NCBI GenBank assembly: GCA_022447205.1
Contig: JAKVBQ010000020.1
Location: 20,473-54,930 of the forward strand
Direction of reading: 5' to 3'
Length of the DNA stretch: 34,458 bases
Origin: Phycisphaerales bacterium
Lineage (GTDB): Bacteria; Planctomycetota; Phycisphaerae; Phycisphaerales; SM1A02
Positions 5,520-22,937 of this stretch are shown piece after piece. The notes beneath the pieces were generated by a model. The model saw nothing but the letters and a program-made list of their open reading frames with translations. It did no database searches and was not told the DNA's origin. Position numbers and translations under genes: made by a program. The first letter of the stretch is position 1. Each line of letters begins with the position of its first letter.

Positions 5520-7072
5520 TCCGGCTCCTCCGAGGTTCGGGCATCGAGGATCCCGAAGTCCTCACAGATGGCGTCGGCGGCAGTGACTCCGCTCATGAGC
5601 ACCATCGGAACACCCGGACCGGGATTCACACTGCCTCCGGCCAGGTACAGGTTCTCGTAGATGCGACTGCGATTCCTGGGCTTGAAGCCACCCTTGAAAC
5701 GCCCGTGGGACGCCAGGCCGTAGATCGCACCACCCTCGGCGTTGTACAGGCGCTCGATCGAGTCCGGCGTCAGGAAATGCTCGACCTCGATCTGCTCCTC
5801 GATGTCCTCGAGTCCGGCACAACGCTTGAGCTTCTCGATGATGACACCGCGATAGTGCTCGAGCAGTCCCCCCGGTCCCTCCCAGCGCTGATCGCCTCGA
5901 CGATATGCGGTGTGCACCAGGACGTAGAGCGCCTCGTGTCCCTCGGGAGCCTGGCGTGAATCGGTCCTGCTGGGAACGGCGAGGTACAGCGTCGGGTCCT
6001 CCGCCGGGACACCCTTGCGATAGATGTCATCGAACTCCTTGCGACTGTCACCACTGAAGAGGAAGCAGTGGTGCGCGAGATGGTCGTACTGTCGCTTCAG
6101 TCCGAGATAGAGCACCACGCCACTGCAGGCCGGCTGGTACCGCCTCGCCACGGACTTCTGCTCGTCATGCGCGATCGGATCGGAGTCGAGGTCCCGATAG
6201 GTCCTCTGGATGTCGCAGTTGCTCAGGACGACGTCGGCCTCGATCACCGTTCCATCCTCGAGCTCGACGCCCCGGACGACCTCCTCGTTCGTGACCAGGC
6301 GACGCACCGAAGTCCCCAGCATCACGTTGACGCCCTCCTCGTGGAGGATCCGCTCGAGGCTCCTCGCGACATTGCGGGTCCCACCGCGCGAGTACCAGAT
6401 GCCGTCATCGACCTGCGCCGCGGCGATCAGGGTGAGGATGGACGGAGCGAGAAAGGGGCTCGACCCCACATACTGCAGGAAGTGCTCGGCGAGCTGTGCG
6501 ACATGGGGTTCACGGAGGTGCTTGTGAATGGTCTTCCCAACGGTGCTGTGGATCCGCATCGACATCACGTCGCCAAGCAAGCCCGGCTCCTTCGGAAGCG
6601 GGGTCCTGATCATGTCCGCGATGCCACCGAGATCCTTGTAGAAGAACACGTTCTGGCTGAGCCGGTACATGCGACGGCTGTACGCGATGAAGCTCTTCCA
6701 GCCATGACCCGGCAGGTCCTCGGGGAACTGCCGGTCGAGTGCGGACGCCATGGCGTCCGTGTCCTTGTGGAGATCGATGATCGTCCCGTCCTCGTAGAAG
6801 CAGCGCCACTGAGGATCCAGTTCGACGAGATCGATGTACTCCTCGACACGACGTCCCGAGCGACGAATGATGCCTCGCAGGACGTCGGGAATGGTGAGGA
6901 TCGTCGGCCCCATGTCGAAGCTGTACCCGGCCTGCTCGTAGAGGTTCATCTTCCCGCCGAGATGACGATTCCGTTCGATGATCGTGACGTTGAAGCCTCG
7001 AGTCGAAAGCTCCACCGAAGCAGCCAGTCCGGCAAGTCCGCCCCCAATGACCACTGCATGTCGACTGTCCAC
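5492..7072 (-). CDS. crtP: CrtP-like carotenoid oxidase (diaponeurosporene/diapolycopene oxygenase type)
   Basis: This is an FAD-dependent amine-oxidase fold protein of the CrtI/CrtN/CrtP superfamily, 526 residues from a GTG at 7072. AGGAG lies 10 bases upstream of that GTG, and no other start places the dinucleotide motif correctly. The motif VVIGGGLAGLAAS begins at residue 7. Several blocks are typical of CrtP rather than CrtN: FDMGPTILTIPDVL, FLQYVGSSPFLAP, LAHHCFLFSGD and the C-terminal GGSVNPGPGVPM. The family oxidises the terminal methyl of C30 carotenoids to an aldehyde, which fits the adjacent aldehyde dehydrogenase. The assignment to CrtP is by motif likeness from memory, not by alignment. 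Confidence 0.85.
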   Translation of the reverse strand: MDSRHAVVIGGGLAGLAASVELSTRGFNVTIIERNRHLGGKMNLYEQAGYSFDMGPTILTIPDVLRGIIRRSGRRVEEYIDLVELDPQWRCFYEDGTIIDLHKDTDAMASALDRQFPEDLPGHGWKSFIAYSRRMYRLSQNVFFYKDLGGIADMIRTPLPKEPGLLGDVMSMRIHSTVGKTIHKHLREPHVAQLAEHFLQYVGSSPFLAPSILTLIAAAQVDDGIWYSRGGTRNVARSLERILHEEGVNVMLGTSVRRLVTNEEVVRGVELEDGTVIEADVVLSNCDIQRTYRDLDSDPIAHDEQKSVARRYQPACSGVVLYLGLKRQYDHLAHHCFLFSGDSRKEFDDIYRKGVPAEDPTLYLAVPSRTDSRQAPEGHEALYVLVHTAYRRGDQRWEGPGGLLEHYRGVIIEKLKRCAGLEDIEEQIEVEHFLTPDSIERLYNAEGGAIYGLASHGRFKGGFKPRNRSRIYENLYLAGGSVNPGPGVPMVLMSGVTAADAICEDFGILDARTSEEPECPEPVLAV

Positions 7073-7199: not shown

Positions 7200-8570
7200 T
7201 CACCCCCTGCGGGGTCCCTTGCGCATCATTCGTCGCAGGAACTCCTGGACCCGTTCCCCGGGTTCATCCGTCGAGAGGCGCATGAACGCCCCGGTCCGGG
7301 ACACGACCACGGTTCGGGTCAGCCGGAGAAGGCCTTCCCGACCTCGAGACGCGCCCCACCCACTCTCCCCCTGCCCGGTGATCGGGACGGCGGGGTGACC
7401 GGTGGGGACCACCGTGTCGTTGATGGTCACGACCCCCGAACCGAAGACCGGGCCCAGACGCTCCATCGCGCTCCTTGATCGGGTGTAGACCGATGTGGCC
7501 AGCTTCTGTTCGCAGGCCGCATGGAGCGACAGCATGGCGTCGAAACCATCGCATGGGATGACGGCCACCACGGGGCCGAAATGCGTGCCGCGAGCAAGTT
7601 CGACCGCTGCAGGACACTCCACCACGGCCGTCGGGAAGAGGGTGCGGGGATCATCATGCACCTCCCGACCCGAACCAAGCACCCGTCCACCCGACCGAGC
7701 GGCTTCTTCAAGGAGCATGCGACATCGCTCGACCTCCTCCTGACGCACCATCCTGACCGGGGATGCGGAGGAGACCAGCCGGTCGAGCTCGGCGACGAAC
7801 ACCTCACAGGCCTCGCGTGCGACGAGCACCCGTCGTGGAGCCATGCAGGTCTGTCCGGCATTCATCACGACGGCACTCCAGATCGACCGAGCGGCAAGCC
7901 GTGGATCCGCGTCCGCGAGGACGAGTGCGGAATCCCGACCGCTCAACTCCAGGGTGCTGGAGATCAGGCGATCCGCGCAGGTTCGGGCGACCTTGCGACC
8001 GACCTCGGTGGAGCCCGTGAAGATCACATGATCGAGTGGCTCTTCGAGCAGGCGCGCCCCCGCCTCGCGCGTCGCTTCCGTCCAGCGAAGCCGGTCCTCG
8101 TCCAGTCCGGCCTCCCGCGCCAGCTCCAGAAGCCTCACCTGCGAGCGGGGCGCATGCTCGGATGGCTTGACGATGACCCGGTTCCCGGCGGTGATCGCCT
8201 GGACGAGCTGGATCCCGAGCAGTTGCACCGGGTAGTTCCAGGTCGCGATGATGCCCACCGTTCCAAGCGGAGCCCGATGCAAGCGGAAGCGCTGGGAGAA
8301 CTGCCAGATCGCGCCACCACGGAGCGATCTGGGGCGCAGGATGCCGCGAAACGACCGCCGATGCCACTTGATCGAGGCGGCCAGGGGCATCAGTTCGGTC
8401 GAAAGGACCTCCCATTCAGGCTTGCCGATCTCGGATGAAACGAGTGAACACAGTTCATCGACATGCTCACCCAGGAGACGCCCGAACCGATGGAGCCAGT
8501 CCCGCCGGTCCTTCAGGGACATCGGTGACGAGGACTCATCCTGGATTGAGGATCCTGAGGGGTGCAGCAT
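7200..8570 (-). CDS. Aldehyde dehydrogenase of the carotenoid cluster (AldH-like)
   Basis: The product is an NAD(P)-dependent aldehyde dehydrogenase of 456 residues from the ATG at 8570; another ATG at 8630 would add 20 residues. Catalytic features are present: TWNYP with Asn112, Lys135 in VIVKPSE, FTGSTEVG at 184-191, the general base Glu208 in LELSGRDS and the nucleophile Cys242 in NAGQTCMAP. In C30 carotenoid pathways this family oxidises the aldehyde made by CrtP to the carboxylate that is then glycosylated. The position just upstream of crtP on the same strand supports that role. It lies divergently from the crtN-like gene with a 102-base shared regulatory gap. Confidence 0.88.
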   Translation of the reverse strand: MLHPSGSSIQDESSSPMSLKDRRDWLHRFGRLLGEHVDELCSLVSSEIGKPEWEVLSTELMPLAASIKWHRRSFRGILRPRSLRGGAIWQFSQRFRLHRAPLGTVGIIATWNYPVQLLGIQLVQAITAGNRVIVKPSEHAPRSQVRLLELAREAGLDEDRLRWTEATREAGARLLEEPLDHVIFTGSTEVGRKVARTCADRLISSTLELSGRDSALVLADADPRLAARSIWSAVVMNAGQTCMAPRRVLVAREACEVFVAELDRLVSSASPVRMVRQEEVERCRMLLEEAARSGGRVLGSGREVHDDPRTLFPTAVVECPAAVELARGTHFGPVVAVIPCDGFDAMLSLHAACEQKLATSVYTRSRSAMERLGPVFGSGVVTINDTVVPTGHPAVPITGQGESGWGASRGREGLLRLTRTVVVSRTGAFMRLSTDEPGERVQEFLRRMMRKGPRRG

Positions 8571-8595
8571 GAGGGCTTCTCGGCGTATCCTTTCA

Positions 8596-8609
8596 GGTAC
8601 GAGCGTACC
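8596..8609. promoter_or_regulatory. Perfect inverted repeat in the divergent carotenoid promoter region
   Basis: GGTACG-AG-CGTACC is an exact six-base inverted repeat with a two-base spacer. It sits in the 102-base gap between the aldH-like start (8570, minus) and the crtN-like start (8673, plus), 26 bases before the former. Its placement suits an operator bound by a dimeric regulator controlling both arms. No regulator gene is adjacent, and core promoter elements in the gap are not clear. Confidence 0.45.
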
Positions 8610-8672
8610 GGATCGCAAGGGGTCCGGCATGCGGGCATCACAGGACCCAGAGGTATCCAGCGAGATCGCAGC

Positions 8673-10307
8673 GTGAGTGGACAGGTCGACATTCCGGACA
8701 GACAGGACGACGGACGCACTTCCATCGGAATCATCGGCAGCGGACCGGGCGGCCTGTCTGCAGCCATGCTCCTCGCCCATGCCGGTGCGGACGTGCATGT
8801 CTACGAAGCACTGCCGGTCATCGGCGGGCGCAGCCGGCGCATGGAAGTCGGTGACTTCTCATTCGACACCGGGCCCACCTTCTTCATGATGCCCTACGTC
8901 CTCGAGGAGATCTTCAACGCGACGGGGCGTCGACTCGAGGACTACTGCGACCTGCACCGACTGGATCCGATGTACCGCCTGCTCATGGGACGGAAGGACC
9001 AGCCGCCTCTCCAGATCGACACCACGCAGGACATCGAGACCATGGCGGCCAGGCTCTCGGAGATCAATCCGAAGGATGGGGACGCCTTCATCAGGTTCAT
9101 GAGCGACACACGGCGCAAGCTCGAACTCATGGAACCGATCCTCCGGCGCCCGATCAGGGGGCTCGGCGACTTCCTCTCGATGGACATGATCAAGGCGGCA
9201 CCGACCATCAAGCCCTGGAAGTCGCTTCATGGCCTGCTCAGCACGTATTTCGAGGACGAGCAGATCAGGCTCGCGCTCTGCTTCCAGAGCAAGTACCTGG
9301 GAATGAGCCCGTTCGAATGCCCGAGTCTCTTCTCCATACTTCCCTTCATCGAATACGAGTACGGGGTCTGGCACCCACGAGGCGGCTGCAACGCACTGAT
9401 GAGCGCCATGGCCGAAGCATGCACCGAGATGGGTGTCACCATCTCCACCTCCAGCCGGGTCGACGAGATCACCTTCGATGGACGCAGGGCACGGGGCGTG
9501 ATGGTGAACGGCACCGAACACCGCCATGACCAGGTCGTGATCAACGCGGATGCGGCATGGGCGATCTCCAACCTGATCCCCAGCACACTCAGGAGGCGCT
9601 GGACCGACGAGAAACTGGAGTCACGCCGCTACTCCTGCAGCACGTTCATGCTCTACCTCGGCCTCGAGGGCGAGGTCGATCTCCCCCACCACACGATCTA
9701 CACCTCCAGGAGCTACGTCGAGAACATCGAGGACATCTCGAGCAACACCCGCCTGAGCGAGGATCCCTCCCTCTACGTGTGCAACCCCTCCCGCCTTGAT
9801 CCGACACTCGCCCCGCCCGGCACGACCGCACTCTACGTGCTGGTCCCGACCCCGAACACGAAGGCGGACATCGACTGGGAGGACTCGAGGGACCTGCTCC
9901 GAACCCGTGCCATCAGGCAACTGGAGGAGGTCCTGGGCATCGAACAGGTCGAGAAGCGGATCCTCGCCGAGAAGTCGATCACTCCGGAGGACTGGCGATC
10001 GGAAGGCATCGCCCATGGTGCGACCTTCAACCTGGCACACAACATCGGACAGATGCTGCACCGACGCCCCCAGCACCGACTCGAGGACGTCGACGGGGTC
10101 TGGATGGTCGGTGGAGGCACCCACCCCGGATCCGGGCTTCCGGTCATCTTCCTGGCCAGTGAGATCACGACCCGCCTGCTGTGCCGGGAAACCGGCCTGT
10201 CGGACCCCATGAGCAGCACGTCACTCCCGTTCCGACGCACGGTCGCGGAAGGTGCGCCTGCCAGGAAACAACCCGACAAGGAAGAGGCGACCGTCGGGAG
10301 CCACTAG
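8673..10307 (+). CDS. crtN: CrtN-like C30 carotenoid desaturase (squalene/diapophytoene desaturase)
   Basis: This FAD-dependent desaturase of the phytoene desaturase superfamily has 544 residues from the GTG at 8673. The start is set by the Rossmann motif IGIIGSGPGG (about 18-27); the upstream extension of the frame runs into the divergent gene and has no family likeness. CrtN-type blocks include FDTGPTFFMMPYVLEEIF, ECPSLFSILPFIE, SCSTFMLYLGLEG, NIEDIS and GGGTHPGSGLPVIF. The family introduces conjugated double bases into a C30 precursor, giving diaponeurosporene or diapolycopene. No squalene or diapophytoene synthase gene is in the window, so the precursor must come from elsewhere. The C-terminal about 35 residues are polar and probably disordered. 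Confidence 0.86.
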   Translation: MSGQVDIPDRQDDGRTSIGIIGSGPGGLSAAMLLAHAGADVHVYEALPVIGGRSRRMEVGDFSFDTGPTFFMMPYVLEEIFNATGRRLEDYCDLHRLDPMYRLLMGRKDQPPLQIDTTQDIETMAARLSEINPKDGDAFIRFMSDTRRKLELMEPILRRPIRGLGDFLSMDMIKAAPTIKPWKSLHGLLSTYFEDEQIRLALCFQSKYLGMSPFECPSLFSILPFIEYEYGVWHPRGGCNALMSAMAEACTEMGVTISTSSRVDEITFDGRRARGVMVNGTEHRHDQVVINADAAWAISNLIPSTLRRRWTDEKLESRRYSCSTFMLYLGLEGEVDLPHHTIYTSRSYVENIEDISSNTRLSEDPSLYVCNPSRLDPTLAPPGTTALYVLVPTPNTKADIDWEDSRDLLRTRAIRQLEEVLGIEQVEKRILAEKSITPEDWRSEGIAHGATFNLAHNIGQMLHRRPQHRLEDVDGVWMVGGGTHPGSGLPVIFLASEITTRLLCRETGLSDPMSSTSLPFRRTVAEGAPARKQPDKEEATVGSH

Positions 10308-10377
10308 AATCCCGGAGACGTGCCCCTGGCACGACACGAGGTACACCAGCAACGTTGCAGATGAGGCACGGATCAAG

Positions 10378-11172
10378 ATGACCAGCACCGAAAAGCTCAC
10401 CTACGACTCGTACCTCCGGATCACGGACCTCCTGGAGCTGCAGCAGCCGCTCTCGGCACCGGAGGAACACGACGAGACCCTCTTCATCATCATCCACCAG
10501 GTCTACGAGCTCTGGTTCAAGCAGATGCTGCATGAAGGCGACTTCCTCTGCACGACGTTCGGCGAGAACGATCAGCCGACCGCCTGCGCGACGCTGAAGC
10601 GGATGCTCACCATCCTGAAGACCATGGTCGCCCAGATCGACGTGCTCGAGACGATGAGTCCGGTCAGCTTCCAGAGCTTCCGACGGTTCCTCAAGTCCTC
10701 GAGCGGCTTCCAGTCCGCCCAGTTCCGTGAGTTCGAGTTCCTTCTCGGGCACAAGCGACGTTCACCCCTGGACAACTACGACGAGAACAGTCCGCTTCGC
10801 AGGAAGCTCGAGGGCAGGCTGGCCGCTCCATCGATCTGGGACGCCTTCTGCAAGTGGCTCTCGATTCGCGACTTCGATGTCCCCCAGGAACTCCTCGATC
10901 GCGATGTCACCGAGGCAGCCCAACCGAACCCCGAACTCCAGAAGCAGCTGATCGCCATCTACCACGGGCACCCCGCGGAACGCACGGTCTGCGAACTTCT
11001 CGTCGACCTGGACGAGGGCATCCAGGAATGGCGCTACCGCCATGTGAAGATGGTTGAACGGACGATTGGAACGCTCAAGGGAACCGGAGGTTCCCCGGGG
11101 GCGGCCTACCTGAGGAACACCCTTTTCCACAGCTTGTTCCCCGATCTCTGGGCGATCAGAAGCGAACTGTAG
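10378..11172 (+). CDS. kynA: Tryptophan 2,3-dioxygenase
   Basis: This cytoplasmic haem enzyme opens the indole ring of L-tryptophan to N-formylkynurenine, the first step of the kynurenine pathway. The 264-residue product has the family signature LFIIIHQVYELWFKQ with the distal His40, Arg117 in QFREFEFLLG, and the C-terminal haem ligand His251 in RNTLFHSLFPDLW. The length is close to bacterial homologues. I chose the ATG at 10378 because TDO similarity begins with YDSYLRITDLL soon after it. A TAGAAT box at 10305-10310, overlapping the crtN stop codon, could be its -10 element. Other kynurenine genes are not nearby. Confidence 0.93.
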   Translation: MTSTEKLTYDSYLRITDLLELQQPLSAPEEHDETLFIIIHQVYELWFKQMLHEGDFLCTTFGENDQPTACATLKRMLTILKTMVAQIDVLETMSPVSFQSFRRFLKSSSGFQSAQFREFEFLLGHKRRSPLDNYDENSPLRRKLEGRLAAPSIWDAFCKWLSIRDFDVPQELLDRDVTEAAQPNPELQKQLIAIYHGHPAERTVCELLVDLDEGIQEWRYRHVKMVERTIGTLKGTGGSPGAAYLRNTLFHSLFPDLWAIRSEL

Positions 11173-11258: not shown

Positions 11259-14200
11259 ATGCACAAGACCGTACTGGACACCTCGATCCTCACCTCCGCT
11301 CTCCTCGTCGTCTCCGGACACGCCTTCGCCAGCGACGACGGAGCCTCGATGTTCCGGTACCCGGACATCTCGGACCGGGAAGTGGTCTTCGTCTACGCGA
11401 ACGATCTCTGGCGCGTCCCCATCGAGGGCGGCACCGCCTTGCCGCTTGCTTCCCCGGCCGGCGTCGAACTCATGCCGCGCTTCAGCCCGGACGGTTCGAA
11501 GGTCGCCTTCGTCGGCAACTACGACGGTGGACGTGATCTCTACACGGTCGATGTGGCTGGTGGCGTGCCTCATCGGGTGACGCACCACCCCGCGACCGAA
11601 CTCCTGAGCGACTGGACCGCGGATGACCAACTGATCTTCACCGTGCAGGGTCTCGAGGGTGTCCCCAGGATCGAACGTCCGTACATGGTGGATGCCGAAG
11701 GCGGCATGCCCGAAGCCCTGACGGTGCCCTACGGCTCCAACGCAACGATCGACAGGACCGGGCGATGGCTCGCCTACACGCCCAGTCAGCGTGACCGGAG
11801 AACGTGGAAGCGGTACCAGGGTGGACTGGCCAGTGACATCTGGCTGATCGACATGGAGGAGCGGACCTCGCGACAGGTGACGGAGTTCGACGGCACCGAC
11901 ACCCTGCCCATGTGGCACGGACGGACGCTCTACTACCTGTCGGATTCGGGCGAAGACAGTCGACTGAACATCTTCAGCTACGACCTCGACGACGAGACGC
12001 ACGAGCAGGAGACGTTCTTCAAGGACTTCGACGTCAAGTGGCCCGCCATCGGGCCGGACGACGACGAACCCGCCCGCATCGTGTTCCAACTGGGTTCCGG
12101 ACTCTACGTCTTCGATGCCGGAACCGGAGAGACCCGACGGATGGAGATCGACGTGCCCGGTGCCGGTGCGGAAACCCGTCCGCACCTCGTGGATGCCGCT
12201 GACTTCATCGAAAGCTGGGACATCTCCCCGACCGGCAAGCGAGCGGTGGTCGAGGCACGCGGCGACATCTGGACCCTCCCCGCCAAGAACGGCAGCCCGA
12301 GGAACCTCACCCGGACCTCCGGAAGCGCGGAGCGTCTTCCGGCATGGAGTCCCGATGGTCGCTGGATCGCCTACTTCTCGGATGAGACCGGTGAGTATGA
12401 ACTCTTCGTCAGGCCCAGCGATGGTTCCGGATCACCTCGAGCCCTGACCGATTCACGAGGACCGTTCAAGACCGGCATCCAGTGGTCCCCGAACTCGGAA
12501 TCCCTCCTCTTCACGGACAAGACCGGGACCGCCTGGCTGATCGAGATCCCCGCGGAGGATGAACCGGCGATCGAGCCGGTGCTCGTGGGCACCAACCCGC
12601 GCGGCGCCTTCCCGAATGTCTCCTTCTCACATGACGATCGCTACCTCACCTGGTCGATGCCGCTCGAAGAGGGCATGACCAGCCGCATCCACATCCACGA
12701 CCGGCAGACGGGCGAAACGCACGTCGTCACCGACGGCATGTTCAATGACGGATCACCCGCATTCGATCGCGAGGGAGACTGGCTGTACTTCACGTCGACA
12801 CGCCGCTTCGCACCAAGCTACTCGGACCTCGACACGACGTGGATCTACGACGACAGCGAGGTGCTGGTCGCGGTCGGTCTGCGCGAGGACGTCGACTACC
12901 CGTGGCTCGAGACCTCCGACGAGGAGTCATGGTCGGAGGAGGACGAGGAAGAGGATGAGGCCGAGGAGGAGGCCGAAGAGGCGCCGAAGCAGGCCGCGCA
13001 GATGGATCCGATCTCGGGCGTGTGGGAGTGTTCCGTCGACATCCCGGGGATGGGCGAACTGCCGATGACCCTCACGCTCACTCTCGAAGCGGACGACCTC
13101 CTGACCGGAACCCTCGTGTCCGACCTGTTCAGTGCGACGGTGTCGGGACTCTGGGACCAGGAAAAGCGGTTCGTGGAACTGATCGCAGAGATTCCCAACG
13201 GACCTTCGGTGACCATCGAGGGGACCGTGGATGGCAATGACTTCACGGGAACCGGGACCACCGACCAGCAACCCCCCGCCACCATCACCGGCACCAGGAT
13301 CGTCGATGAAGAGGATCCCGATGACGAGAAGCAGGGCGAAGAAGACGGAGAAGAGGGTGACGAGGATTCAGAGGATGAGACCTTCACCATCGACTTCGAG
13401 GACATGGAACGTCGTGCGATCCAGCTCCCCGTCCCCCCCGGCAACTTCAGGAACCTCCAGGTCAATGACCGGAACCAGCTGATGTACATCCGATCGGGCG
13501 GCGGCATCAGGGTCTTCGACATCTCCGAAGACACCGCGAACGAACAGTCGGCCGGCGGTGGTGGGCGGTTCATCATGTCCGCGAACGGCAAGAAGATCCT
13601 GATCCCCGGAGGCAACGGGGCACGAATCGCCAAGGCCGGCCCCGGCGGCGGCGGAGATCGAGTCGTCACGAAGGGCATGATGGTGACCATCGACCCTCGC
13701 GAGGAATGGCGACAGCTGGTCACCGATGCCTGGCGGATCCAACGCGACTACTTCTACGACGAGAACCTTCATGGCGTCGACTGGGACGCCGTGCTCGAGG
13801 CCTACCTCCCGCTGGTCGACCAGGCCGCGAGCCGTGAGGACGTCTCCTACATCATCGGCGAGCTCATCGGCGAATTGAACGTCGGCCATGCGTACTACTG
13901 GGGTGGCGACGGGGAGGACCAACCCTCGATGAACGTCGGCATGCTCGGAGTCGACTGGGAGATCGCGGAGGGTGATGGCGACGAACCGGATCACTATCGG
14001 ATCTCGAGGATCATCGAAGGTGGCCCCTGGGACACGGACAGCCGGAACCCGCTGAATCGTCGTGGCGCGAGGCTGCACGAAGGCGACCGGGTCATCGCCG
14101 TCAACGGCACCCCCCTGGACACCACGCGTGATCCATGGTCCGCCTTCATCGGTCTTGCGGGACAGTCCCTTGTCCTCGAGGTCATCGGAGACGAGCCGGA

Positions 14201-14939
14201 TGCGGAACCGCGGGAGGTCGTGGTCACCCCGATGCGTGATGAAGGCGACCTTCGCTATCGCAACTGGATCGAGGACCGACGGAACATGGTCGACGAGGCG
14301 ACCGACGGCAGGGTCGGCTACATCTACGTGCCAAACACCGGCGTCGACGGACAGACCGATCTCGTGCGGCAGTTCTACGGCCAGGCACACAAGGACGCCC
14401 TGATCATCGACGAGCGCTGGAACGGGGGCGGCCAGATCCCGACCAGGTTCATCGAACTCCTGAACCGACCGGTGACCAACTACTGGGCGGTCCGTGACTC
14501 GAAGGACTGGATGTGGCCACCGGATTCACACCAGGGCCCCAAGGCGATGCTGATCAACGGACACGCCGGCTCGGGTGGTGACATGTTCCCCTGGCTCTTC
14601 CGGCACAACGAACTCGGGCCGATCATCGGCACCAGGACCTGGGGCGGCCTCGTCGGCATCTCCGGGAACCCGGGCCTCATCGATGGTGGCTACACGGCGG
14701 TTCCGACGTTCGGTTTCTACGAGACCGACGGCACCTGGGGCATCGAGGGACACGGCGTTGAACCGGACATCGAGGTCGTGGATGATCCCGGACTCATGCT
14801 CGACGGGCAGGATCCGCAACTCGAGAAGGCGATCGAGGTCATGGTCCAGGCACTCGAGGATGGTCAGGGGCACGTCCGACCGGAACGTCCGGCGTCACCC
14901 GATCGTTCCGGCATGGGCATCACGGAAGAGGACAAGTAG
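11259..14939 (+). CDS. Exported tricorn-type serine protease (S41) with an inserted beta module
   Basis: The 1226-residue product has a signal peptide (1-24) and is probably periplasmic. GGAG lies 9 bases before the ATG. Residues about 30-550 and 710-790 are WD40-like propeller blades (repeated SPDG / LY-x-VD patterns). A C1-type region is at 815-895, a PDZ-like domain at about 890-990 and the S41 catalytic core at 1015-1175. Active-site candidates are His877 (NVGH; tricorn has Ser-His here), Ser1105 in NGHAGSGGDMFPW and Glu1168 in GVEPD. Unusually, an extra domain (about 584-681) sits between two runs of Asp/Glu (552-574 and 683-708). It probably degrades peptides released by other proteases. 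Assignment to the family is firm; the substrate is unknown. Confidence 0.88.
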   Translation: MHKTVLDTSILTSALLVVSGHAFASDDGASMFRYPDISDREVVFVYANDLWRVPIEGGTALPLASPAGVELMPRFSPDGSKVAFVGNYDGGRDLYTVDVAGGVPHRVTHHPATELLSDWTADDQLIFTVQGLEGVPRIERPYMVDAEGGMPEALTVPYGSNATIDRTGRWLAYTPSQRDRRTWKRYQGGLASDIWLIDMEERTSRQVTEFDGTDTLPMWHGRTLYYLSDSGEDSRLNIFSYDLDDETHEQETFFKDFDVKWPAIGPDDDEPARIVFQLGSGLYVFDAGTGETRRMEIDVPGAGAETRPHLVDAADFIESWDISPTGKRAVVEARGDIWTLPAKNGSPRNLTRTSGSAERLPAWSPDGRWIAYFSDETGEYELFVRPSDGSGSPRALTDSRGPFKTGIQWSPNSESLLFTDKTGTAWLIEIPAEDEPAIEPVLVGTNPRGAFPNVSFSHDDRYLTWSMPLEEGMTSRIHIHDRQTGETHVVTDGMFNDGSPAFDREGDWLYFTSTRRFAPSYSDLDTTWIYDDSEVLVAVGLREDVDYPWLETSDEESWSEEDEEEDEAEEEAEEAPKQAAQMDPISGVWECSVDIPGMGELPMTLTLTLEADDLLTGTLVSDLFSATVSGLWDQEKRFVELIAEIPNGPSVTIEGTVDGNDFTGTGTTDQQPPATITGTRIVDEEDPDDEKQGEEDGEEGDEDSEDETFTIDFEDMERRAIQLPVPPGNFRNLQVNDRNQLMYIRSGGGIRVFDISEDTANEQSAGGGGRFIMSANGKKILIPGGNGARIAKAGPGGGGDRVVTKGMMVTIDPREEWRQLVTDAWRIQRDYFYDENLHGVDWDAVLEAYLPLVDQAASREDVSYIIGELIGELNVGHAYYWGGDGEDQPSMNVGMLGVDWEIAEGDGDEPDHYRISRIIEGGPWDTDSRNPLNRRGARLHEGDRVIAVNGTPLDTTRDPWSAFIGLAGQSLVLEVIGDEPDAEPREVVVTPMRDEGDLRYRNWIEDRRNMVDEATDGRVGYIYVPNTGVDGQTDLVRQFYGQAHKDALIIDERWNGGGQIPTRFIELLNRPVTNYWAVRDSKDWMWPPDSHQGPKAMLINGHAGSGGDMFPWLFRHNELGPIIGTRTWGGLVGISGNPGLIDGGYTAVPTFGFYETDGTWGIEGHGVEPDIEVVDDPGLMLDGQDPQLEKAIEVMVQALEDGQGHVRPERPASPDRSGMGITEEDK

Positions 14940-14959: not shown

Positions 14960-17900
14960 TCATCGCCCGGCGCCACCGACCGCTCCGGTGATCTGGATGC
15001 GCCCGGTCTTCATGTCCCAGGTGACGCTTTTCGCGCGCACCGGTGCCGCACCGCCCTTGTTCAGCACGCTGACCAGGCGATTGTCACGTGCCGTGAGCTT
15101 CGCGATCTGGTTCGCTGCGTCGTAGTCGAAGACCTCGCACTCGACATCCTGCTCCGGCGTTCGGACGAACACCCTGCCGTTGGCGACGACCCGGAGGATC
15201 TTCGCAGCCCCCCCGAGATCAAGTGCTTCACTGCCATTGAGGCCATCGGACCCGGAGGTCGAGGCGGGACGATCCAGGAGCACCTCGAGGTTGTTGGCGA
15301 TCAGGGTGAGGGTGTCGTCGACCCGCAGGCCCGCATGCAGGATCTCGACCCCGTCATTCATCGTCACCAGATACCGATCGGCCACCTGGTGACGCATCTT
15401 CATGTCACCACCCCAGCTGAATCGAGTGGTGCCATCCCCACCGATCGAGACGCCCCGCACGACCGGCTCGGCGGTCTTCGGTTCGAGCAGGTCATCCTCG
15501 ACCTGGTTCACGAGCAGTTGCCCCGCCCCGTCGACCTCACCCTCTCCACTGTCCGCGTCGTAGCGAATGAAGGGGCCGGTGATCCGGAAGAGGCCGGGTT
15601 CACCCTGGCGTTCATCACTGCTCCAGGTCCTGCTCTCCAGGCGCGAGTCACCACGTGCCGTCAGAAGCCGCATTCTGCGTGAACCCGAGAATGCGGCGAG
15701 CTGGTCCTCGGATGGAGGATTCCCTTGATCGTCGAAGATCGGAACGTCGGTTCTCGGCGCGAAATCGATCCTGAGAACGTCCGCATCAAGGTCGTTGTCC
15801 TCGAGCGGTTCGGGACGGTTGCGGACGATGACATCACCAGTCAGTTCGATCGCACCGGCACCGTCATTGGCGCCGTCATCGAACTTCATCCCTTCGCCCC
15901 AGGTCGCCTCCATGGAGAGCGATCCCTCTCCGATGGCCGGCGGCCGCGTGAATCCCGACTTCGGCATCACGATCGGTTCTTCGAAGTAGCGGAACCGACC
16001 GGGACCGGTGGAGGCCGCTTCCCGAAGCGCCTCGTCGAAGCGAAGCGCCTGAAGCTGGTCCGCGACGACGTTGCCCCGGATGATCAGCAGTGACCCATCC
16101 TCTGCGGCAAGCGTCAGGTTGCGTCTCGTCCCGCTTCCGAGCAGGGAATCCGCCCAGATCCGTGCTCCATCCGCGAGCTGCACATGCACCCCGTGATCGG
16201 CGAACACACGATCGATCTCGACACCACCCAGACCCGCATCTCCCGAGACACGCTCCGTCGAGGTGTCTGGAGCGACCGCGAAGGTGACGTCGAGTCCGTC
16301 GGTCCAGAGCGTCTGCTCCGCATCCTGGGCACGCACCGCACCCTCGGCACGCATGGTCGTCGGAATGGTTCGGCCGGTCCGGTCCTGGGAAAGGGCGAGG
16401 TCGATGACCCGTGCGGAGAGCATGCCGAGTTCGGACTTGCGACTCGCCGAAGCAGGCTCGTCATCCGACCCACGTGCGATGATCCGTTCGATGCTGTCAC
16501 GGTCCTCGTCCGCAGCGAAGCGCACGTCGAGGGAATCGGCGACCAGCTCGAAGTCGGGATTGTCGACCCGGACCGCTCCATCGAAGCGCGCTTCCTCGAG
16601 CGCCTCGGTACCGGGACGGAAACGGAGATCGACACCGTCCGCCCAGTCGACCTCGAGTTCCGGATCGGACATGTCACCCGTCGGATCCGCCGGGTCCTGA
16701 TCATCAAGGCGGTGAATCTGCATCGATCCGGGACCCTCGAGCCTGCCATTGCCGTCACGTCGGGCGAACCGGAAGCGTTCTCCACGCAGATGCAGTCTCG
16801 GACTCGTGACCACCAGGGGACGTGCCCCGGCGGATTCGAGCTCGATGAGATCCTCGGCGCTTCGATACCTCAGGAGGTCGCAGGCGATCACCGCTTCGCT
16901 TGCCGCATCGCTGACCTCGACCAGGCGTTCCGCGCCCGACGTGATCTCGACGAGGACGTCATCGACACTCCCGAGACGTTCGGAATCCGATGCCGGCATC
17001 ATGATCATCCGACCCGTGTAGTGAATGAGGACGAGACCCGCGGAATCGGGTGCGGACTGCACGGTCGAACCAAGCATGCTGCCGACCAGCAGGCTTCGTC
17101 CCCCCATCGTGGGAGATGGGGGGACCTGAAGATCCTGTCGCACGACGGCATCAGCACCGTCGAGCCCATCGCCATCGAGACTGAAGGTGGCTTGCAGGCG
17201 GTGACCGGAAACGACCGAGTCGGGGGTGAGTGCGTCGTTCGAGGCATACTGTTCGATGCGCACGTCCCGTTCGAGTTCGAGGGTGTAGAACTGAGGGGCG
17301 CCGGCATCGGGTGCCACGTCGGGTGGCGGAGCAGCCCCTTCGGTTGCGCCCGTTTCGGCAGATTCACTCGACGTGTCCTGACCGGCATTTCGGGTCAGCC
17401 TGATCGGTGCGATGGCGCGTTCGACAACCAGGCGTTCGATGCTCTGTTCGTCATCACCAAGCAGCATCGTGAGTCCCTCGCCGGAGAAGGAGGCCCCTTC
17501 GGCATCGATGCGGATCGACTTGTTGCAACGGATCTCGCCCAGGACATTGCTGAAACTCGCTTCCTCGGTGCGGACGATCACCTCGGGTTCGGTTTCCTCG
17601 ATCTTCACGGGCCGTCCGTCTCGAGGAACGAAGAGCCTGATCACGACATCGCCTTCAAGCGTGCCGGACTCGATCGCCTGCTGGGGCACGCTCACCAGGC
17701 CGCGTTCCCCGCGCAAGGTGATGATTCGACCACCGGACAGGTAGACCATGGCGCGCGGGCGGACCATCTTCAACCAGCCGTCGGGGAGCGGATCGATCCG
17801 CTCCGCGCTGTACTGCTGCTCCAGGGTCCCGGTGGGACCGGCCACCTGCACCCAGGCGCCGTCCTCGAGCTTGACCGTCGAGCCTTCCGGGGTGGTGGTG

Positions 17901-18109
17901 GCGCGGGCACGCTCCGCATCGGTCAACGCATCCGGCGTGACCAGGTCGGTCACGTCCAGGTCGCGATGGCGGCGCCGTGTCTCGGTGGGTTCCGGTTCGA
18001 TGAGCCACCCGACGTAGATGACGGCGATCGCGAGCACCACGCCCGACGCCACCGCCCAGGTGATGGTGCTCACGCCCCTTCGATGCAGTGTTCTCCGCGA
18101 CTCGATCAT
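14960..18109 (-). CDS. Giant LptC/LptA-like (OstA-fold) membrane-anchored protein
   Basis: The product has 1049 residues with one N-terminal membrane span (about 14-37) and a long beta-strand-rich exterior part. Short recurring strand patterns resemble LptA/LptC/OstA jelly-roll units: DGWLKMVRPRAMVYLSG, DFELVADSLDVRF, LFRITGPFIRYDA and RVFVRTPEQDVECEVFDYD, spaced along the chain. A Ser/Ala/Pro-rich linker lies near 243-272. LptC and LptA normally have under 200 residues each and carry lipopolysaccharide across the periplasm. The gene starts 9 bases after the kdsC stop, in the place where lptC and lptA stand in many Gram-negative bacteria. I infer a single-chain periplasmic bridge for lipopolysaccharide or a related lipid. 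Sequence likeness is weak, so fold prediction would be the test. Confidence 0.65.
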   Translation of the reverse strand: MIESRRTLHRRGVSTITWAVASGVVLAIAVIYVGWLIEPEPTETRRRHRDLDVTDLVTPDALTDAERARATTTPEGSTVKLEDGAWVQVAGPTGTLEQQYSAERIDPLPDGWLKMVRPRAMVYLSGGRIITLRGERGLVSVPQQAIESGTLEGDVVIRLFVPRDGRPVKIEETEPEVIVRTEEASFSNVLGEIRCNKSIRIDAEGASFSGEGLTMLLGDDEQSIERLVVERAIAPIRLTRNAGQDTSSESAETGATEGAAPPPDVAPDAGAPQFYTLELERDVRIEQYASNDALTPDSVVSGHRLQATFSLDGDGLDGADAVVRQDLQVPPSPTMGGRSLLVGSMLGSTVQSAPDSAGLVLIHYTGRMIMMPASDSERLGSVDDVLVEITSGAERLVEVSDAASEAVIACDLLRYRSAEDLIELESAGARPLVVTSPRLHLRGERFRFARRDGNGRLEGPGSMQIHRLDDQDPADPTGDMSDPELEVDWADGVDLRFRPGTEALEEARFDGAVRVDNPDFELVADSLDVRFAADEDRDSIERIIARGSDDEPASASRKSELGMLSARVIDLALSQDRTGRTIPTTMRAEGAVRAQDAEQTLWTDGLDVTFAVAPDTSTERVSGDAGLGGVEIDRVFADHGVHVQLADGARIWADSLLGSGTRRNLTLAAEDGSLLIIRGNVVADQLQALRFDEALREAASTGPGRFRYFEEPIVMPKSGFTRPPAIGEGSLSMEATWGEGMKFDDGANDGAGAIELTGDVIVRNRPEPLEDNDLDADVLRIDFAPRTDVPIFDDQGNPPSEDQLAAFSGSRRMRLLTARGDSRLESRTWSSDERQGEPGLFRITGPFIRYDADSGEGEVDGAGQLLVNQVEDDLLEPKTAEPVVRGVSIGGDGTTRFSWGGDMKMRHQVADRYLVTMNDGVEILHAGLRVDDTLTLIANNLEVLLDRPASTSGSDGLNGSEALDLGGAAKILRVVANGRVFVRTPEQDVECEVFDYDAANQIAKLTARDNRLVSVLNKGGAAPVRAKSVTWDMKTGRIQITGAVGGAGR

Positions 18110-18118
18110 GACGAGCCC

Positions 18119-18682
18119 CTAGGCAAGGTTTCCGGCATCGAGATGCCCGGCTACGACGTCGTCCCAGGCGCCACGGGCTCGAAGGAGGTGTTCGATCGCC
18201 TCCCGAACCGCTGCGTCACCGCCCCGGCGAGTGCCGACCCAGGATGCTCGCTTCAGGACATCGGGGTCGGCATCGACGGGAGCCATCGAGTAACCGCTTC
18301 GCTCGAAAGCGGGAAGATCCGCGAGATCATCACCCATGAACGCGGTGCGTTCCGGACCGATACCGAGTCGCTCCTGGACACTCGCGAGGGCGGACGCCTT
18401 GTCGGGAACATGCTCGAGCACGATCTCGACGCCCAGCTCCGCCATGCGGTGCCGAAGGGCCTCGCAACCACGGCCGGTGATCACCGCGATCCGGTTGCCC
18501 TGACGCTGCCAGGCCTTGATCGCGAGCCCGTCTCGAACGTGAAAGCGCTTCAGCTCGCCGCCCGTGGCGTCAAGCAGGATCGAACCGTCGGTCATCACGC
18601 CATCGACGTCGAGACAGAGCAGCTCGATGTCCGTGGGATCGACGGCATGACCGGCACATGAGGAGTCGGAGTGATCAGGCAC
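18119..18682 (-). CDS. kdsC: 3-deoxy-D-manno-octulosonate 8-phosphate phosphatase (KdsC family HAD)
   Basis: This enzyme removes phosphate from Kdo-8-phosphate, giving Kdo for the lipopolysaccharide core. The 187-residue product starts at a GTG at 18682 and matches the family's compact size (no cap domain). HAD motifs are clear: Asp25-Val-Asp27-Gly-Val with the KdsC-typical TDG at 31-33, ITGR at 68-71, Lys95 in PDKASAL and GDD at 117-119 followed by LADLP. No good ribosome site precedes the GTG, but a TACACT box ends 6 bases upstream, so a leaderless transcript is possible. It lies 28 bases after the CPBP protease gene and 9 before the giant Lpt-like gene. Confidence 0.88.
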   Translation of the reverse strand: MPDHSDSSCAGHAVDPTDIELLCLDVDGVMTDGSILLDATGGELKRFHVRDGLAIKAWQRQGNRIAVITGRGCEALRHRMAELGVEIVLEHVPDKASALASVQERLGIGPERTAFMGDDLADLPAFERSGYSMAPVDADPDVLKRASWVGTRRGGDAAVREAIEHLLRARGAWDDVVAGHLDAGNLA

Positions 18683-19994: not shown

Positions 19995-21155
19995 ATGCGT
20001 GCCTTTTCTCGGATTTCAGAGCATCCCGACAGCCGGACGGCTGCCATGGAGGTCGCCACGGCACTGGAAAAGGACCTTCAGGGAGCCACTCCGGCCGCAT
20101 TGATCCTCCTGGGCAGCTTCCACCATGCCTCGGCATTGACGCTGGTCGCCGGGACCATCCGTGACCAGATCCAGCCTGGATCGATGATCAGCGGCACCGC
20201 CCAGACCGTCTTTTCCGGGCTCAGGGCCCCGGAGCGCCGCTCAGGCCTGGTCGGCTTCGTCCTTGAGGGCGATGGGCTCCAGGCCCGTGCCTTCATCAGG
20301 GACTGGCATCGGGGACCAGCCGAGCTGACGACACCGGAAGAGTGGTCGACCATGGCATCGACGGGCGCGGATCATGCGGCGACGATCCTCCTTGCCGACC
20401 CCTTCAGCACCGATCCACGGCCCGTGCTCCAGGCGATCGACCAGGCCCTGCCCGGCCCGGTCGGTGGCGGTCTCCTGAGTGGATCGACCCGCCCCGGAGG
20501 GAACGTCCTGATCGCGGATGACGAGCATGCCTCCACCGGACTGGTGGGACTCGGACTCGGAGGACCGATTCGATGCGGCACCCTGGTCAGTCAGGGCTGC
20601 AGGCCGATCGGGCAGCGCATGATCGTCACCGGAGTCCATGAAAGTGCGGTGATGTCGCTTGGAGGCCGACCGGCGACCGATGCTGCTCGCGAAACGATCA
20701 TGGGATTGAACCAGTCGGACCGTGACCTCGTCGCGAACGGGCTTCGACTGGGCGTGGCGGTGACCGAATACCGCGAGCACTTCGGTCCGCATGACTACCT
20801 CGTGAGGGAGATCACCGGAGTCGACGAACAGACCGGAGCCCTGAGAGTCGCGGAGCGCCCCTCCGTGGGCCAGAGCGTGCAGTTCCTCATCCGTGATCCG
20901 GCCAGCGCCGATTCCGACCTCGATCTCGCACTGGACGCGGCCTCGCTCGATGAAGCCCCCCCCTTCGGGCTCCTGCTCGCCGAGTCGGGGGTTCGTGCCG
21001 GCACCGAATCGGATCTCGAGCGGTTGAACGCGCGCCTCGGGGACCTTCCGACCGCAGGCATGATCTGCGCCGGCGAGTTCGCTCGAGGGCGGGATCGAAG
21101 CGTGGTGCATGGTGCGAGCGCGAGTGCCCTCATCTTTCGCGCAAAGGAAGGGTGA
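19995..21155 (+). CDS. FIST-domain sensory protein
   Basis: The product has 386 soluble residues. The N-terminal half matches the FIST N domain (ALILLGSFHHASAL, a Gly-rich GGGLLSGSTRPGG segment, then STGLVGLGLGG). The C-terminal half matches the FIST C domain (GRPATDAARETI, LRLGVAVTEYREHFGPHDYLVREI, and the final CAGEFARG, which resembles the family's GEI/F-G ending). FIST domains are thought to bind small ligands such as amino acids and occur in signalling proteins. Here no output domain is attached, so any partner must be separate. GGAG lies 9 bases before the ATG. The secretion ATPase gene follows 111 bases later. Confidence 0.85.
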   Translation: MRAFSRISEHPDSRTAAMEVATALEKDLQGATPAALILLGSFHHASALTLVAGTIRDQIQPGSMISGTAQTVFSGLRAPERRSGLVGFVLEGDGLQARAFIRDWHRGPAELTTPEEWSTMASTGADHAATILLADPFSTDPRPVLQAIDQALPGPVGGGLLSGSTRPGGNVLIADDEHASTGLVGLGLGGPIRCGTLVSQGCRPIGQRMIVTGVHESAVMSLGGRPATDAARETIMGLNQSDRDLVANGLRLGVAVTEYREHFGPHDYLVREITGVDEQTGALRVAERPSVGQSVQFLIRDPASADSDLDLALDAASLDEAPPFGLLLAESGVRAGTESDLERLNARLGDLPTAGMICAGEFARGRDRSVVHGASASALIFRAKEG

Positions 21156-21266
21156 TATCCACCCGGTTGCGCCGATAAACAGATGGGTTTTGGCCCAATT
21201 CCATGACCATCCTCGCAGCCGTTCCCTGCTGAGGGGATACTCAAACGAGGCGTGGAGGCATTTCCA

Positions 21267-22937
21267 GTGGGTATCGGTTCAATTCTGGTCGAGCGAGGCT
21301 TGATCGATTCTTCGCAACTCGATGAAGCGATCGAGGAGCAGAAGCGCACCGGCGAACGGCTGGACAGGGTCATGGTCCGCATGGGCCTGATCGACGACAA
21401 CAAGGTGTTGGAGGCGATCGGGATCCATTTCCAGATGCCGATCATCGACCTGGAACAGGTCGAGGTCGAGGAGGAGACCCTCCGACTGCTCCCCTCGAAA
21501 CTTGTCTTCAAGCAGCGATGCGTGCCGATCGGCCGAGGGGACGGCGTCCTTCGCATCGCGACGAGCGACCCCTTCGAACTGAGTGCCTTCGATGAACTCC
21601 GACTGCTGACCGGCCTGGGCATCGAGCTGGTGCTTGCCGACGAACGGGACCTCACCAAGTTCATCAGGTCCCACTACGGCGTCGCGGGAGACACCCTCGA
21701 AGCGCTTTCCACGGATGAAACGAAGACGATCGAAGTGGAGTCCGGGGAGAACGCGACCGAGATCGAACTCGCCCAGGAGGCGAGCGTGGTCAAGCTGGTC
21801 AACGACCTGCTGCTTGAAGCGATCAGGGAACGGGCGACCGACGTCCACATCGAACCCTTCGAAGAGGAACTGGAAGTCCGCTACCGGATCGACGGGGTCC
21901 TCGCCCCCGCCGGGGTTCCGCAGACGATCAATCGCTTCCGGAACGCGATCGTCAGTCGCCTCAAGATCATGGCGGACCTGAACATCGCGGAGAAGCGACT
22001 GCCCCAGGACGGCAGGATCTCCCTGCGCCATCGCTCACACGAGTACGACCTTCGACTCTCGGTGATCCCGATGCTGCACGGAGAAGGCGTCGTCCTCAGG
22101 ATTCTCGACCAGTCATCGGTCCTCCTGGGACTCGAGCAACTGGGCATGCCGAAGCACACCCTCGAGCGATGGGACGACTTGATCGCACGCCCGCACGGCA
22201 TCCTGCTGGTGACCGGGCCCACGGGAAGCGGCAAGTCGACCACCCTGTACGCAAGTCTCAGCAGGATCGTGAGCGAGTCGGTCAAGGCGATCACGGTCGA
22301 GGATCCGGTCGAGTACCAGGTCGAGGGCGTCAACCAGATCCAGGTGAACAGCTCGGTCGGACTGGGATTCGCCGAGGGACTCCGGTCGATTCTCCGCCAT
22401 GACCCGGACATCATCATGATCGGTGAGATCCGAGACCAGGAGACCGCGAATGCTGCGGTCCAGGCCTCCCTGACCGGGCACCTGGTGTTCTCCACCCTCC
22501 ACACCAATGACGCCGCCGGTGCCGCGACGAGGCTCCTCGACATGGGCGTCGAACCATTCCTGGTGGCCAGTGCGGTCGAGGGAGTCCTTGCCCAGCGATT
22601 GCTGAGGAAGGTCTGCCCCGAATGCGCCAAGCCGGTTTCGGTCGACAACCTCGAGCTTCCGTCGGACTTCGTGATGCCTGAGAGCCGGGCCCTGGTCGAG
22701 GGTGTCGGATGCAGGGAATGTCGGAGAAGCGGTTACCAGGGACGAATGGGAGCGTTCGAACTGTTCAGGCTCACCCCGAGAACTCGGGAGATGATCATGC
22801 AGCGCGCCCCCACCGGCAGGTTGATGGAGGCCGCCTGCGAGGAGAAAGAACTGAACCTGATCCGCACGGAAGCCTTCGAACTCGTTCGGAACCACAAGAC
22901 CACCTTGGCGGAGTCGATGCGGATCTGCCGGTCATGA
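21267..22937 (+). CDS. GspE/PilB-type secretion or type IV pilus assembly ATPase
   Basis: This hexameric cytoplasmic motor drives type II secretion or pilus assembly. I chose the GTG at 21267, giving 556 residues, because GGAGG lies 8 bases upstream; the GTG at 21252 has no proper spacing. A GspE N-terminal domain (about 1-150, beginning GIGSILVERGLI) precedes the ATPase core: Walker A GPTGSGKSTT at 317-326, Asp box TVEDPVEYQ, Walker B DIIMIGEIRD at 381-390 and His box STLHTNDAAGA. The zinc-binding tetracysteine is Cys450, 453, 482 and 485. The pseudopilin and platform genes are not in the window, so which machine it powers is open. Confidence 0.9.
   Translation: MGIGSILVERGLIDSSQLDEAIEEQKRTGERLDRVMVRMGLIDDNKVLEAIGIHFQMPIIDLEQVEVEEETLRLLPSKLVFKQRCVPIGRGDGVLRIATSDPFELSAFDELRLLTGLGIELVLADERDLTKFIRSHYGVAGDTLEALSTDETKTIEVESGENATEIELAQEASVVKLVNDLLLEAIRERATDVHIEPFEEELEVRYRIDGVLAPAGVPQTINRFRNAIVSRLKIMADLNIAEKRLPQDGRISLRHRSHEYDLRLSVIPMLHGEGVVLRILDQSSVLLGLEQLGMPKHTLERWDDLIARPHGILLVTGPTGSGKSTTLYASLSRIVSESVKAITVEDPVEYQVEGVNQIQVNSSVGLGFAEGLRSILRHDPDIIMIGEIRDQETANAAVQASLTGHLVFSTLHTNDAAGAATRLLDMGVEPFLVASAVEGVLAQRLLRKVCPECAKPVSVDNLELPSDFVMPESRALVEGVGCRECRRSGYQGRMGAFELFRLTPRTREMIMQRAPTGRLMEAACEEKELNLIRTEAFELVRNHKTTLAESMRICRS

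Follow-up and report, generated by a model that had tools for sequence, protein, structure and literature searches.

A predicted single-chain lipopolysaccharide transport bridge in Planctomycetota: a giant kdsC-linked protein with LptC-like and LptA-like units

The window analysed here, a 34,458-nucleotide (nt) stretch of the genome of a marine Phycisphaerales bacterium (phylum Planctomycetota; GCA_022447205.1, contig JAKVBQ010000020.1), contains, directly behind kdsC, an open reading frame (ORF) for a protein of 1049 amino acids (aa), hereafter the giant protein, which probably functions as a natural single-chain bridge for the transport of lipopolysaccharide (LPS), with LptC and LptA-like units combined in one polypeptide. 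Judged by sequence and structure prediction, the protein consists of an N-terminal membrane anchor followed by LptC-like and LptA-like parts; its gene is linked to kdsC, the remaining Lpt set is encoded in the same genome, and comparable proteins occur widely in the phylum. The original prediction described a 1049-residue protein with one N-terminal anchor and a beta-rich exterior starting 9 bases after kdsC, and proposed a fused or expanded single-chain Lpt bridge; the description agrees with the ORF and its model (Table 1), and the proposal is largely supported by the LptC fold and the two LptA folds found in the predicted structure. In Escherichia coli, the gene order is kdsC-lptC-lptA-lptB, and LptC and LptA are proteins of ~190 and ~185 residues, respectively.

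An AlphaFold2 model of the complete protein, built from 27 input sequences, all taken from the window or from loci of named genomes (mean predicted local distance difference test score, pLDDT, 79.7; predicted template modeling score, pTM, 0.66), contains, according to DSSP, one long helix (residues 14–36), three short helices elsewhere and 68 strands between residues 87 and 1043. Three stretches of the predicted models adopt the OstA/Lpt jelly-roll superfamily fold. In fold comparisons with VIA, residues 75–241 match LptC (6mit_C; Z 15.0, root-mean-square deviation, rmsd, 2.9, 144 aligned residues), whereas residues 837–1018 match LptA (2r1a_G; Z 14.0, rmsd 2.5, 130 aligned), as do residues 646–829 (residues 375–558 of the model of the middle part; 2r1a_E, Z 13.5, rmsd 2.2, 125 aligned). 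The order of elements seen in LptC, i.e., an N-terminal membrane helix and then the LptC jelly roll, is present in the model, with low confidence for the helix. The jelly roll is described as a hallmark that is found in LptA, LptC, LptD, LptF and LptG (PMC10094684).

For the full model, Lpt proteins fill the top 27 places among the best 50 VIA rows (Z 8.7–15.6), followed by non-Lpt structures at Z 7.4 or less; when residues 272–836 were modelled alone (pLDDT 86.2, pTM 0.80), the top 23 rows were all Lpt proteins (Z 9.5–13.5), with non-Lpt structures following at Z 8.3 or less. The matches quoted above are restricted to rows with rmsd 2.2–2.9. Rows for OspA, radial-spoke and similar proteins, at Z ~6–8, were treated as background, and long alignments with low template modeling scores produced by Foldseek on whole models, where teneurins and Rhs/Tc shells rank beside LptD with rmsd ~28–44, were disregarded. 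The structural check of the original prediction hence places the N-terminal part with LptC and two later stretches with LptA, above the background of unrelated folds, while for residues 272–555 the likeness comes from sequence profiles. Altogether, the models and alignments suggest that an LptC is followed by an estimated four to five LptA-like units.

Searched singly against Pfam, NCBIfam and PDB sequences, the giant protein yields LptC and LptA matches that are below threshold and fall at fitting positions: TIGR04409 (LptC) at residues 73–217 (E 9.5e-4), PF06835 (LptC) at residues 92–217 (E 0.12) and PF03968 (LptA/LptD_N) at residues 933–1036 (E 0.014). A ribosomal-protein match at E 0.02 was taken for chance. 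Given that the single-protein searches produced sub-threshold LptC and LptA matches only, profiles of relatives were required. An order-level profile (A1) was made from the giant protein and 15 relatives; against solved chains it gives a single match, an LptA (E 0.55), and when its 16 members were scanned one by one against Pfam (E up to 0.1), 12 matched LptC and eight LptD_N/LptA, with one stray family appearing once. A further profile (A7) comprises eight proteins from other families of the phylum, each encoded behind kdsC; four of these were scanned singly, and in all four Pfam finds LptC together with one to three LptA stretches.

In hhalign comparisons with A7, nearly the whole chain of the giant protein is aligned, in two registers (residues 397–1042 at 98.5% and 7–711 at 98.3%), its LptC-like part falls on the LptC part of A7 (92.9%), and residues ~397–550 are placed on the LptA repeats at 95.0, 85.6 and 85.4%, each time in a different register. 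With reversed decoys the value is at most 0.4%, and 0.1 in the comparison of residues 272–555. When segments of the giant protein were compared with one another, residues 736–822 aligned with 898–980 and, seen twice, residues ~404–462 with 985–1049, in each case above 90%; three further hits above 90% were dropped because the segments overlap by construction. None of the segments matches an LptD profile beyond 57%.

Relatives of the giant protein were found in 162 of the 201 genomes sampled from the order (E up to 1e-3; the other 39 have none at that sensitivity). Among the matches listed, they mostly form one open frame of ~900–1300 aa, and the closest one with a named genome (60% identity) belongs to a Phycisphaerales metagenome-assembled genome (L064). 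The giant gene is not a chance ORF. Over the phylum, A1 matches 61 of 294 genomes, i.e., 42 of 44 in the same order, eight of 10 in the rest of the class and 11 of 240 beyond the class.

The original prediction would have been refuted by a fold other than a continuous LptA-like jelly roll, or by normal separate lptC and lptA genes elsewhere with this gene unlinked to them in relatives; neither was encountered, and in the loci examined the giant gene is mostly linked to kdsC. Among 28 loci from named genomes, kdsC is located directly upstream of the giant gene in 25, the remaining three being truncated by the end of the contig (L086 and L088, both among the 28, belong to the same assembly and possibly represent opposite ends of a single gene). 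Another 19 loci of the order were fetched, and the giant gene was shown by tblastn in 18, with kdsC directly upstream in 15; six of these 18 are, judged by their length, contigs already present in the 28-locus set, and the corresponding count for the new ones is nine of 12. Outside the order, the giant gene, identified with a local profile, directly follows kdsC in 14 of 19 loci that were found without using kdsC. The giant protein itself has no family hit above cut-off, which would fit a beta-rich surface or envelope protein that is unrelated to Lpt and resides beside kdsC by chance or for regulation, but the fold and profile evidence, along with the phylum-wide linkage to kdsC, makes such an explanation extremely improbable.

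Of 294 genomes sampled from the phylum, 256 have a kdsC match at E up to 1e-3, and in 227 the match exceeds the family cut-off. From the listed loci we chose 60 across Planctomycetota so as to cover families and took at each the longest same-strand ORF beginning at most 600 nt after kdsC, a rule that favours long ORFs; it is the family matches, not length, that carry the census claim. An uninterrupted ORF of at least 500 aa is present behind kdsC in 49 of the 60 loci. In Pfam (E up to 0.01), 33 of these ORFs match LptA/LptD_N (best E 6.3e-33) and 21 match LptC (best E 5.7e-19), the respective numbers for NCBIfam being 25 and 24. One ORF matches HDOD and is probably unrelated; we take it to be L152, which has no membrane segment, and it was left out of the length statistics. 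Ten ORFs were scanned one by one: in five (L167, L189, L190, L191 and L197), an N-terminal LptC is followed by one to three LptA stretches in the same chain; L161 has a clear N-terminal LptC plus a weak overlapping LptA match; and L142, L154 and L172 match LptA, with the LptC model falling on the C-terminal part of L142 and L154. Several of the kdsC-linked relatives scanned singly exceed the Pfam cut-offs.

The family content of these proteins also bears on another alternative, namely that the giant protein is a single-chain bridge for a different lipid, i.e., an AsmA/TamB-like phospholipid conduit whose likeness to LptA is incidental. Long beta-groove proteins that bridge phospholipids do exist, and the Foldseek list includes a chain of LPD-3 (rank 47, prob 0.12). 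Nevertheless, no AsmA/TamB Pfam model was matched in 65 proteins (16 from A1 and 49 from the census), in which LptC and LptD_N/LptA dominate, and the giant gene mostly adjoins kdsC, an LPS gene, so we regard this explanation as very unlikely. Among the fold matches listed there is no AsmA/TamB structure, an absence that excludes nothing.

The 48 census ORFs retained for length statistics span 547–1199 aa, with a median of 987 aa. Many of the sample fall at ~800–1200 aa, and L167, L189 and L190, at ~660 aa, contain LptC and two or three LptA stretches. Length is similar within families: the range averages 40 aa in 13 families with at least two members, compared with 210 aa for shuffled labels, and none of 10000 shuffles was as low; shared descent alone could explain this similarity, which is no proof of a ruler.

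The kdsC loci without a giant gene next to kdsC are heterogeneous. L157 encodes, after kdsC, a normal LptC of 178 aa (5310–5843; PF06835, E 4e-22), and L163 a 350-aa protein with one LptA domain (912–1961), the genome of the latter (G228) having a separate 207-aa LptA-domain frame elsewhere (G228:C26). In L166, a 669-aa LptC-LptA protein is encoded somewhat further down from kdsC. In the genomes of L187 and L188, proteins with several LptA stretches are encoded at other loci, away from kdsC (L125, 4753–7491, and L128, 4013–6661, with three and four LptA stretches, respectively). L151 and L184 are cut by the contig end. An unrelated or unmatched ORF lies beside kdsC in L143, in whose genome a 781-aa LptA-domain frame is present on another contig, and likewise in L176, L177 and L179. 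A phylum-wide search with PF03968 gave a match in 69 of 294 genomes, and among the matches listed only two frames are shorter than 300 aa, G228:C26 and a 267-aa frame in G385. The latter has a 410-aa frame as its neighbour on the contig, and these two neighbouring frames possibly are one broken gene. L157 and L163 are possible ancestral or intermediate states, and the series of 178, 350, ~660 and ~1000–1200 aa suggests stepwise fusion and expansion, in an order that is hypothetical; it points to a possible route by which such a bridge could have grown.

The genome check proposed in the original prediction showed that this genome encodes LPS synthesis and the partners of an Lpt export machine, namely LptB, LptF, LptG and LptD, while the profiles used found no separate lptA or lptC. 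LptB is encoded on contig C20 (309.5 bits, cut-off 240); its gene is preceded by a CorC-like gene and followed by a PEGA-domain ORF, and of 10 ORFs from this locus that were scanned, none gave an LptA match at E up to 0.01. About 2.6 kb from lptB there is a gene for a PagL-like lipid A deacylase (L043 5799–6464, G000:C20, minus strand). Two LptF/LptG-family genes lie in tandem on C30, over the Pfam cut-off; the 543-aa product scores better as LptF and the 392-aa product as LptG, both under the NCBIfam cut-offs. In the LptF-like protein (L042 10600–12231, G000:C30, minus strand), the best LptF/LptG stretch ends at about residue 204, with a second one later; this arrangement suggests that here, too, the periplasmic jelly roll is possibly enlarged. 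LpxC is encoded on C3 (284.9 bits). LptD is encoded on C45 (L213 1477–4554, plus strand; 1026 aa from the first ATG) and scores 1074.7 bits with a profile of seven relatives, themselves found through weak PF04453 matches, two of the seven under the cut-off. The LptD frames of the order are mostly about 1000–1200 aa among the matches listed. The protein matches neither the LptD nor the LptD_N model of Pfam, and its apparent absence in a PF04453 search of this genome, which returned nothing, was a sensitivity failure, given that the relatives' profile finds it.

A separate LptA or LptC was not found in this genome with PF03968; with A1, only the giant protein matched (just two of 13 first-look candidates scored); and with a phylum-level profile, A4 (E up to 1), again only the giant protein matched (13 of 13 scored). 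Since the initial failure to find LptD reflected limited sensitivity, the empty PF03968 search was not taken to prove the lack of an LptA, and a very diverged separate LptA could have been missed by the profiles used. Such an LptA would be called for if the giant protein were an enlarged LptC, its first jelly roll alone working as LptC, the rest being an extension, and the separate protein completing the bridge. The OstA-fold proteins of this lineage do escape profiles, as illustrated by its LptD, which has no Pfam hit and is missed by A4, and G228 combines the 350-aa kdsC-linked protein with a separate LptA-domain frame. We nevertheless consider this explanation unlikely: residues 646–829 and 837–1018 are themselves LptA-like (Z 13–14), so that a separate LptA would be redundant, and short PF03968 frames are confined, among the matches listed, to the two mentioned above.

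Several observations weigh against a single-chain bridge. The full model has a pTM of 0.66 and a low-confidence anchor helix (low pLDDT); residues 272–555 have no fold match of their own in the VIA comparisons of the full and middle models, and some Lpt rows (6mjp_C and several LptD chains) align with rmsd 8–43 over long stretches. The giant protein is under all curated cut-offs (PF03968, 16.1 bits against 20.4; PF06835, 12.4 against 21; TIGR04409, 18.7 against 38). Among the 49 long census ORFs, 16 have no Pfam LptD_N match; one of the 10 scanned singly, L147, has no match at all; 11 of the 60 kdsC loci have no giant gene next to kdsC; and A1 matches just 11 of 240 genomes outside the class. 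Finally, the genome is a draft (95% complete, 86 contigs), and the N-domain of its own LptD likewise escapes A4 and PF03968, which makes the negative result on separate LptA a weak one.

On balance, we favour the single-chain bridge and propose the following mechanism, modelled on the known Lpt machine. The N-terminal helix would anchor the giant protein in the inner membrane. LptB2FG would lift LPS into the jelly roll of LptF, as in E. coli, and the first jelly roll of the giant protein would act as LptC, receiving LPS from that of LptF. The chain would continue into its four or five LptA-like units, the last of which would dock onto outer-membrane LptD, at its N-terminal jelly roll, and LPS would slide, pushed by ATP hydrolysis, through a groove that we infer to be continuous, residues 272–555 included. 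The protein would bind both LptB2FG and LptD and transport LPS; no partner LptA would exist, LptA oligomers would not be needed and no bridge would have to be assembled from LptA. With LptC and the LptA array joined in a single molecule, the bridge would have a reach fixed by the gene, its length being set genetically. More tentatively, and with somewhat less than even confidence, we suggest that much of Planctomycetota may employ such a one-molecule bridge, with the number of units and the length (~550–1200 aa) fixed by the gene in each lineage, as a molecular ruler for membrane spacing.

Within the window, the KdsC assignment rests on a TIGR01670 (KdsC phosphatase) match of 143.8 bits (cut-off 106.95); we chose the GTG at 18682 as the start, and the ORF ends at 18119, leaving 9 nt (18110–18118) before the giant ORF. 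A large plus-strand ORF overlaps the giant gene (Table 1); kdsC and the relatives settle the minus strand for the giant gene. A CAAX-protease-like (Rce1-like) gene is located upstream of kdsC. Since the plus-strand gene for a tricorn-type protease converges on the giant gene from downstream, the latter is the last gene of its run.

Table 1. Coordinates of the giant gene, its predicted parts and other genes in the window
Feature	Coordinates	Strand	Basis
Giant LptC-LptA(n) ORF, 1049 aa, proposed single-chain LPS bridge	14960-18109	minus	ATG start, 1049 codons
Predicted N-terminal membrane helix (LptC-type anchor), residues 14-36; low pLDDT	18002-18070	minus	AlphaFold2/DSSP
LptC-like jelly roll, residues 75-241	17387-17887	minus	VIA + TIGR04409
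First part of long exterior, residues 272-555; ~397-550 LptA-like	16445-17296	minus	sequence profile (hhalign)
LptA-like jelly-roll stretch within residues 555-836	15602-16447	minus	VIA
C-terminal LptA-like unit, residues 837-1049 (matched 837-1018)	14963-15601	minus	VIA + PF03968
kdsC (3-deoxy-manno-octulosonate-8-phosphate phosphatase; Kdo synthesis), immediately upstream of giant ORF	18119-18682	minus	TIGR01670
Overlapping large ORF, 825 aa	16184-18661	plus	ORF list only
Tricorn-type protease, 1226 aa; beta-propeller, PDZ and S41 domains; converges on giant gene	11259-14939	plus	
Tryptophan 2,3-dioxygenase-family gene	10252-11172	plus	
Flavin amine oxidoreductase gene, beside the tryptophan 2,3-dioxygenase-family gene	8562-10307		
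FIST-domain gene	19995-21155	plus	
MshEN/T2SSE-type ATPase gene, after the FIST-domain gene	21252-22937		

If the giant protein indeed is a single-chain bridge, the number of bridge units would be fixed in one gene; adding or removing single units would then allow the length of the bridge and the width of the periplasm to be varied and measured, and structure determination of a whole bridge could be done on one molecule. The number of LptA molecules in the LPS bridge is given as unknown in the literature (PMC10094684). A gene survey describes the Lpt system of planctomycetes as "largely reduced" (PMC8871954); under the same assumption, this verdict may reflect parts that are present but fused and diverged. 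LptD and BamA are reported from all planctomycete genomes searched in another study, whose main text mentions neither LptA nor LptC (PMC3422733). Searches of an open-licence library, which leaves out most subscription papers and all bioRxiv preprints, listed no account of an LptC-LptA fusion or giant in planctomycetes.

Compared with known systems, the giant protein resembles LptC (PF06835/TIGR04409) in its single N-terminal membrane helix, the LptC-type first jelly roll and the position directly after kdsC, but it is 1049 aa long and runs on into LptA-like units, whereas LptC is a single jelly roll of ~190 aa. With LptA (PF03968/TIGR03002) it shares the fold of residues 646–829 and 837–1018 and the proposed role as part of the periplasmic bridge; LptA, in contrast, is separate and soluble, whereas the units of the giant protein are covalently joined and predicted to be membrane-anchored, which in principle makes an oligomer unnecessary. 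The LptF of this genome, at 543 aa, is larger than that of E. coli. Similarly to the E. coli system with its LptC-LptA-LptD bridge, this genome has LptB, LptF/LptG, LptD and LpxC; the difference is that, in the planctomycete, LptC and the LptA array apparently are one polypeptide. LptD has 1026 aa here vs. 784 aa in E. coli, the latter value being given in PMC3422733. In diderm Firmicutes, candidate LptA and LptC are likewise encoded next to LPS genes but, according to PMC5007114, they are two small, separate OstA-domain proteins of ~200 aa. The giant protein appears to be a variant of the Lpt bridge, with known parts in one chain, that occurs far beyond this genome.

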